A stretch of 44,184 nucleotides of DNA from positions 1 to 44,184 of the forward strand of contig DXGK01000031.1 in assembly GCA_019113965.1 (NCBI GenBank), given 5' to 3'. The position numbers were made by a program, and so were the translations under genes. This DNA comes from Candidatus Limosilactobacillus merdipullorum. GTDB lineage: Bacteria; Bacillota; Bacilli; Lactobacillales; Lactobacillaceae. Of this stretch, positions 35,811 to 36,822 are shown one piece after another. The notes below the pieces were generated by a model. That model saw only the letters and a program-made list of their open reading frames with translations, was not told where the DNA came from and ran no database searches. Numbering within the stretch: the stretch's first letter is position 1; every line of letters begins with the position of its first letter.

Positions 35811-36572
35811 TTATTTATTAACCAGTCCGCCAAAACGACGGTGACGGTGCTGGAAGACGCTAATGGCCGCTTTGAGACTCTCACCATCAAAGTCCGGCCA
35901 GGATTGATCAACAAAGACCAGCTCACTGTAGGCAATCTGCCAAAGTAAGAAGTTGCTGATCCGTTCCTCACCACTGGTCCGAATCATGAGGTCTGGATCT
36001 GCCAATTTGCCAAGCGGTGCGGTCATCAGATGCGCGCTGATTGCCTGTTCGTCGATGCTTTCAGGAGCCAGTTTACCATCTTGGATGTCCTGTCCCAGCG
36101 CCTTAACGGCTCCGACCAGCTCATCTCTTCCCCCGTAATTGAGGGCAAAGTTCAGCACCATCCCATCGCAATCCTTGGTGTCGGCGATGGCTTGGTTAAC
36201 CGCCTTTTGGGTTCCAGCCGGCAATTCATCAATATGCCCCATCACCATCACCCGGACATTGTGAGCCACCAGGTCGGGAACGAAGGTGTTAAAAAAACGA
36301 ATTGGCAACTTCATCAAGTAGCTAACCTCTGACGTTGGCCGTTTCCAATTCTCAGTGGAAAAGGCGTACAAGGTTAGTACCTTGACCCCTAAGTCACTGG
36401 CGGCAATGGCAACCTTCTTCACGGACTCCATTCCCGCCTTGTGGCCGGCAACCCGCGGCAAATGCTGGCGCGTTGCCCAGCGACCATTACCATCCATAAT
36501 GATGGCCACGTGCTCCGGAATCTTGTCCATATCTAATTCGGTGGTTTGGTGGTCTTCTCCATCCACTCCCAT
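35811..36572 (-). CDS. uppS: Isoprenyl (undecaprenyl diphosphate) transferase
   Basis: HVAIIMDGNGRWATRQHLPRVAGHKAGMESVKKV; ATG at 36572 with SD GAGGAGG 9 nt upstream (ORF track start at 36578 is a TTG). Confidence 0.96.
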   Translation of the reverse strand: MGVDGEDHQTTELDMDKIPEHVAIIMDGNGRWATRQHLPRVAGHKAGMESVKKVAIAASDLGVKVLTLYAFSTENWKRPTSEVSYLMKLPIRFFNTFVPDLVAHNVRVMVMGHIDELPAGTQKAVNQAIADTKDCDGMVLNFALNYGGRDELVGAVKALGQDIQDGKLAPESIDEQAISAHLMTAPLGKLADPDLMIRTSGEERISNFLLWQIAYSELVFVDQSWPDFDGESLKAAISVFQHRHRRFGGLVNK

Positions 36573-36768
36573 TGGCAAAAGCCTCCTCGGTGAGGCTGGG
36601 AATGAACTCAGCCTCTTTACTTTTTTAAGATATTTATGTAACGGCGCGGTAGCTGGCTGAATTCCGAACGTTGATAAATCGACGCTCGGAACACCTAGCC
36701 ATCCTCGCGGAGGTGGGAAGACGAAGTCGCAAGCGACTTCTTTCCCACTCTCAAAATATACGCAAAAC
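36573..36768 (-). ncRNA. Candidate structured 5' leader RNA of uppS (three or more hairpins, SD-sequestering alternative fold)
   Basis: Hairpins at 36710-36752, 36654-36701 and 36592-36615, plus an alternative SD-pairing hairpin at 36581-36596; downstream of a promoter at 36771-36798. Confidence 0.6.
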
Positions 36769-36770
36769 TT

Positions 36771-36798
36771 ATTCTAACAGAAAAAAAAGCAAGTGCAA
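36771..36798 (-). promoter_or_regulatory. Candidate promoter of the uppS leader/operon
   Basis: Minus strand TTGCAC-16 bp-TAGAAT. Confidence 0.6.
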
Positions 36799-36822
36799 AA
36801 CCGCCACAGCCATTACACTTGC
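36781..36822 (-). terminator. Intrinsic terminator after frr
   Basis: Minus strand GCAAGTG...CACTTGC followed by TTTTTTTT. Confidence 0.88.

Follow-up and report, generated by a model that had tools for sequence, protein, structure and literature searches.

A dispersed palindromic repeat of Limosilactobacillus that stands in the place of short hairpins, with one copy in the leader of uppS

The structured leader upstream of uppS in Candidatus Limosilactobacillus merdipullorum is very probably one copy of a non-coding palindromic repeat of about 160 bp, composed of the hairpins H1 and H2, a spacer and the hairpin H4, which spreads by replacing short hairpins. It lies in a stretch of 44,184 nucleotides that was analysed as a whole (the window). 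The interest of the finding lies in the pattern of replacement: at all 13 comparable pairs of filled and unfilled sites, the unfilled genome carries an ordinary hairpin of 24–34 nt exactly at the position of the element. This removes a false riboswitch-like lead, in whose stead 13 sites in three hosts now give well-documented cases in which a mobile palindromic element was exchanged for a terminator hairpin.

The uppS leader and its parts

The features of the interval between frr and uppS, and of uppS itself, are these:

36592-36752, minus strand: the element, a complete copy of 161 nt in the uppS 5' untranslated region (BLAST copies in its own genome and in the genus; covariance model)
36710-36752, minus strand: hairpin H1 (GAGAGTGGGAAAGAAGTCGCTTGCGACTTCGTCTTCCCACCTC), the first hairpin of the preliminary description (pairing and both-sided changes in 34 aligned copies)
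36645-36709, minus strand: long hairpin H2, the second hairpin of that description (covariation; core retained in streptococci and other Lactobacillales)
36616-36644, minus strand: A/T-rich spacer (sequence, alignment, terminator scan)
36592-36615, minus strand: hairpin H4, GAGGCTG-N10-CAGCCTC, the third hairpin of that description (terminator scan and pair counts)
36781-36822, minus strand: intrinsic terminator of frr, hairpin plus T8, intact and outside the element (sequence; partly conserved in the nearest relative, G049)
36771-36798, minus strand: putative uppS promoter, TTGCAC-16-TAGAAT, outside the element (sequence and promoter scan)
36582-36588, minus strand: uppS Shine-Dalgarno (SD) sequence, GAGGAGG, outside the element, 9 nt before the ATG at 36572-36570 (sequence)
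35811-36572, minus strand: uppS coding sequence with ATG start (open reading frame list and UppS relatives, the best named being L. caecicola)

The promoter, the three hairpins and the SD are thus all present on the minus strand of the frr–uppS interval, as had been described. The boxes TTGCAC (36798-36793) and TAGAAT (36776-36771) stand 16 nt apart, the -35 overlapping the frr terminator, and the promoter scan called an identical -10 with an overlapping -35. In H2 a conserved core, CGCGAGG...CTACCGCG, is joined to a tip that varies freely. H4, read on the plus strand, opposite to uppS, is followed by TTTACTTTTT and scores in the terminator scan as a predicted intrinsic terminator, a G+C-rich hairpin followed by a T run, this T run being the spacer read on that strand. 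The hairpins are real and the structure of the leader is strongly non-random: its 263 nt fold at -98.8 kcal/mol, against -73.7 ± 5.1 kcal/mol for dinucleotide shuffles (z = -4.9; 0 of 200 shuffles as stable), and the structure therefore goes beyond chance.

From these strings the preliminary description had proposed a two-state switch specific to the translation of uppS, with H4 exposing the SD and an alternative pairing, GCCTC:GAGGC, hiding it. The strings exist, and the predicted probability that the SD is unpaired is intermediate (0.30–0.63, according to the stretch folded). However, we give the switch almost no credence. The competition is weak: computed on the 46-nt 3' end of the leader, the pairing that hides the SD yields -11.8 kcal/mol against -17.7 kcal/mol for H4, a difference of 6 kcal/mol, and a third pairing that had gone unmentioned (UUCAUUCCCA with UGGGAGUGGA, across the uppS start codon) competes as well. 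Moreover, every copy of the element ends in AGCCTC, which can pair with the GAGG of nearly any SD, so that pairing with the SD is expected by chance, and the element is dispersed beside unrelated genes. Rfam (15), at gathering and at relaxed thresholds, returned no credible family in the window; a rhinovirus CRE match at the relaxed threshold is weak (E 0.17) and was dismissed as noise.

The comparison of relatives also speaks against the switch. We read the frr–uppS spacer in about two dozen congeners, and the leader is conserved before uppS in none of them. In G049, the nearest relative (97% Frr identity), the element is absent between frr and uppS; the -10 is retained as TAAAAT and GGGAGGC stands at the SD position. 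In G028, G029 and G038 frr is followed by a diverged copy in the opposite orientation, and G023 and G033 carry half elements only, in which an H1-like hairpin serves as the frr terminator. No relative among the spacers read has the element in the uppS orientation, and a conserved cis-regulatory leader of uppS was rejected. In the G036 record (L151, L266; a single contig, listed as 100% complete) genes abut without intergenic DNA, the frr stop being followed directly by uppS and an HU-like gene directly by der; it looks like a concatenation of coding sequences, which would explain why it gave no element matches.

Dispersal of the repeat and the hairpins at its sites

A dispersed intergenic repeat had been the third alternative of the preliminary description, after a new regulatory RNA and a diverged known leader, and it is the one that holds. 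The description had also named many unrelated genomic copies as evidence against a switch; such copies are what we found, in the own genome and in congeners. BLAST with the leader detected six further copies, full or partial and with unrelated genes as neighbours, in the own genome, a draft of 1.3 Mb that is 86% complete, and matches in 37 of 54 congeneric genomes. Across 55 aligned full copies the borders of the element are sharp, at 36592-36752 of the window. A covariance model built from 34 copies, to which the uppS-leader copy scores 175 bits (E 1.1e-35), gave 7 full or partial matches in the own genome, 28 in G043, 26 in G035, 28 in G038 and 86 in G029, and only 3, all weak, in the nearest relative.

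Nearly all copies checked lie at the ends of genes. In G043 and G029, 43 of 44 copies adjoin the 3' end of at least one gene, mostly at 30 nt or less from the stop codon; 15 stand between convergent genes, 27 between tandem genes, 1 between two 5' ends and 1 beside a single called neighbour, the neighbouring reading frames having been called by a simple rule, so that individual entries of this count may be wrong. The 6 nt next to the copies are 66% A on the left side and 58% T on the right, values that fall to about 30% further out.

The unfilled sites show what stands there when the element is absent. The 13 comparisons comprise the rpsA–der interval, the frr site (G038 against G037), eight loci of G035, and three loci of the own genome against G049; in the close comparisons the outer flanks are unchanged. 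At rpsA–der the element is present in G035, G038 and G039 and a simple hairpin in G002, G005, G008, G037, G040 and G053, with the sequence CTTTTAAGGGG[GAAGTGACATGATTGTTACTTC]CTCTTTAATC in G002, G005 and G037; in close pairs the flanks are identical up to the point of exchange. At frr, a variant copy in G038 corresponds to a simple terminator hairpin in G037, with the same A and T runs on either side. When the flanks of nine G035 copies were joined and compared with sister genomes, the spanning matches exceeded the joined flanks by about one hairpin, and alignment of eight of these loci placed a hairpin specific to each locus precisely where the element is. The three copies of the own genome stand at short terminator hairpins of G049. 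At most sites the old hairpin is common to several sister species, so the element is the derived state there.

The uppS site may belong with these. In G049 it carries a short hairpin, GCCGG-TAGGATG-CCGGC (z -3.6 against shuffles), which is not a terminator; that this was the hairpin replaced is suggestive only, because the flanks are about 76% identical to those of G049, the one relative in which this hairpin is seen; the site is not among the 13. If it is included, all 14 replaced segments are more stably folded than their shuffled versions (z -3.2 to -8.2). The position of the uppS copy is atypical: it lies in a 5' untranslated region, about 90 nt downstream of the frr stop and with an intact terminator in between, and would represent an unusual landing site.

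As a separate observation, the simple terminators of frr and rpsA–der (L148, L150, L268, L274, L275, L278, L279) resemble a single H1 or H4, and terminator hairpins may be swapping more generally in this genus.

These sites bear on a rival account of the repeat, that of an ordinary MITE inserted by a transposase, with later deletion of the redundant old terminator. Its size, its dispersal and its want of coding capacity would suit a MITE, as would its imperfect terminal inverted repeats, GAGAGTGGGA and GAGGCTGGGA. We nevertheless think it unlikely: (i) the whole old hairpin is gone at 13 of 13 sites and the neighbouring bases are intact; (ii) the alignments of filled and empty sites display no target-site duplication; and (iii) Y1 transposases are missing from several copy-rich genomes. 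PF01797 is absent from G000, G024, G026, G028, G044 and G047, several of which are incomplete drafts; the distribution of Y1_Tnp does not match that of the element, mobilisation of the IS200/RAYT kind was rejected, and a resident Y1 transposase is not required.

Structure, subfamilies and distribution of the element

The element shows strong covariation. H1 abuts H2 and is followed, after the A/T-rich spacer, by H4, and the pairs of H1 are formed in 97.7–99.6% of the cells of the 34-copy alignment. Over that alignment 94.9% of cells pair, against 89.1% in shuffles, and both-sided changes number 114 against 36; when partners are slid by 1–3 columns the pairing falls below 50%, a control biased in favour of the structure, since this was defined from one of the 34 copies. 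The covariation that the earlier reading called for is found among the dispersed copies and not among uppS leaders, and the compensatory changes mostly separate subfamilies.

G.T pairs in H2 fall mainly on the plus strand of the element (82, against 16 A.C), which might be taken as a sign of selection on an RNA. This reading was rejected: three positions account for 68 of the 82, and the rare variants, 14 G.T against 16 A.C, indicate that there is no strand-specific selection on single copies. We read this as a structure maintained by the propagating lineage and not at each site. The same data weigh on a family of structured regulatory RNAs encoded by the host and selected site by site for a host function, which the strong covariation and the conservation of the core across Lactobacillales would favour. 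The rare H2 variants lack a strand bias, however, the neighbouring genes are unrelated, related species have anything from a few copies to 86, and close relatives differ in the occupancy of orthologous sites, all of which makes this explanation very improbable.

A narrower possibility is that the insertion at uppS occurred by chance and was later co-opted as a useful 5' leader, through mRNA stability or translation. The predicted 5' untranslated region of uppS consists almost entirely of the element, which is well preserved; on this strand no U run follows H4, which makes read-through possible. On the other side, the even split of the rare H2 variants suggests drift of single copies, and we judge co-option improbable. 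Any effect of this copy on uppS expression would be a side effect, a by-product of the insertion.

Two further observations concern variation in sequence. A second subfamily in G035, G038 and L. reuteri-type genomes (L294, L296-L304, L310, L311), of the type GGGAGCGAGACAG...GGGGGCTCG, keeps the hairpin plan and differs in H2 and at the right end. In addition, some copies have a module, GACGCGAAGCTAGCCTATTGGG with variants, inserted within an H2 arm or standing in place of one (L002 1501-1685, L039, L126, L181, L307), so the family is modular.

The element is scattered through Limosilactobacillus, with diverged forms in streptococci and other Lactobacillales. A sample of the family gave matches in only 3 genomes outside the genus, and at the level of the order most matches came from one genus outside the family. 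Among named genomes the model matched L. caecicola, S. ratti, S. orisasini and S. equinus and, once each and more weakly, S. mitis and S. oralis; two Granulicatella, one Lactiplantibacillus, one Lentilactobacillus, one Lactobacillus and one Neobacillus genomes gave no match. In the streptococcal copies, and in most of the others read, H1 ends in CCCCCGC or a close variant; these copies also share the core CGCRAGG...TACYGCG, while the tip of their H2 varies. Copies also occur on plasmids, in one L. reuteri record (NZ_CP139476.1, 98,428 bp) and two Streptococcus records; three other query copies had no match among plasmid records, and the phage collection gave no BLAST match. Among viral contigs there was one match to the core pattern (L379 216-238, IMGVR_UViG_2671180327_000002), so a copy may lie near or within a prophage. 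In another Lactobacillales genome a lysine riboswitch (72.9 bits, L359 1268-1411) is separated from an element-like match by about 90 bases; it was the sole Rfam match in a related locus and is unrelated to the element.

A model of spread and the known repeats

The replacement of hairpins suggests a route for the spread of the element. It would replace a short hairpin already present at the site, usually the intrinsic terminator of a gene; the old stem-loop would be lost, the adjacent A run and T run would remain, and the end hairpins of the element would probably take over termination, the elements being predicted to terminate transcription. Such a replacement would occur in one step, with the hairpin itself as the target. 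Two candidate mechanisms are template switching at a hairpin that stalls replication, through the short A/T runs common to terminators, and cleavage of the hairpin followed by repair from a copy of the element. More broadly, and only tentatively, we propose a selfish DNA/RNA element of the whole Lactobacillales that homes to hairpins, replaces stem-loops in one step, needs the folded core CGCRAGG...CTACYGCG, rewrites terminators genome-wide and occasionally enters leaders, the one before uppS being an example.

With filled and empty sites aligned, one-step replacement can be tested directly. In addition, the family merits a model in an RNA database: other scans will be misled by its copies, which resemble strong regulatory leaders.

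In the literature we found no Limosilactobacillus repeat of this kind, and the element was set beside four kinds of repeat from other bacteria. REPINs, of the REP-RAYT type, likewise have paired hairpins, are intergenic and are non-autonomous; the difference lies in the Y1 transposase, of which the copy-rich G024, G026, G028, G044 and G047, and also G000, have no gene. BOX elements, known from S. pneumoniae, S. mitis and S. suis, have terminal inverted repeats and target duplications (PMC3049150). They too are modular, fold stably, are dispersed and intergenic, and are sometimes co-transcribed, whereas the present element, by comparison of descriptions, shows hairpin replacement where they show target duplications. 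The SPRITE of S. pneumoniae resembles it in being terminator-like, in its enrichment at gene 3' ends and in its AAAA/TTTT ends, and differs in having one 18-bp duplex and a long U-rich tract in place of three hairpins (PMC3049150). For SPRITE no empty site was found (PMC3049150), whereas pairs of filled and empty sites are available here.

The closest likeness is with the enterococci. Efa-1 of E. faecalis is an intergenic repeat of 163 bp in 65 copies, with paired adjacent stem-loops (PMC2267715), and EFAR elements have been named in enterococci and called MITE, with De Gregorio et al. 2009 cited (PMC3733652). The present element shares with these (i) its size, 161 bp, its location between genes in the copies checked and its tens of copies (28 in G043, 86 in G029); and (ii) adjacent independent stem-loops, H1 and H2 abutting here with covariation in both. 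De Gregorio and colleagues are said to have found the integration targets of EFAR to be unrelated stem-loop sequences of 24–37 bp, beside which stand the 24–34 nt hairpins at our 13 of 13 sites. The differences are the host, Limosilactobacillus here, the extra terminator hairpin H4, and the copy in the uppS leader. Since these descriptors fit EFAR/Efa-1, we place the element within a known kind of repeat, and on these descriptors, as distinct from sequence, it likely belongs to EFAR.
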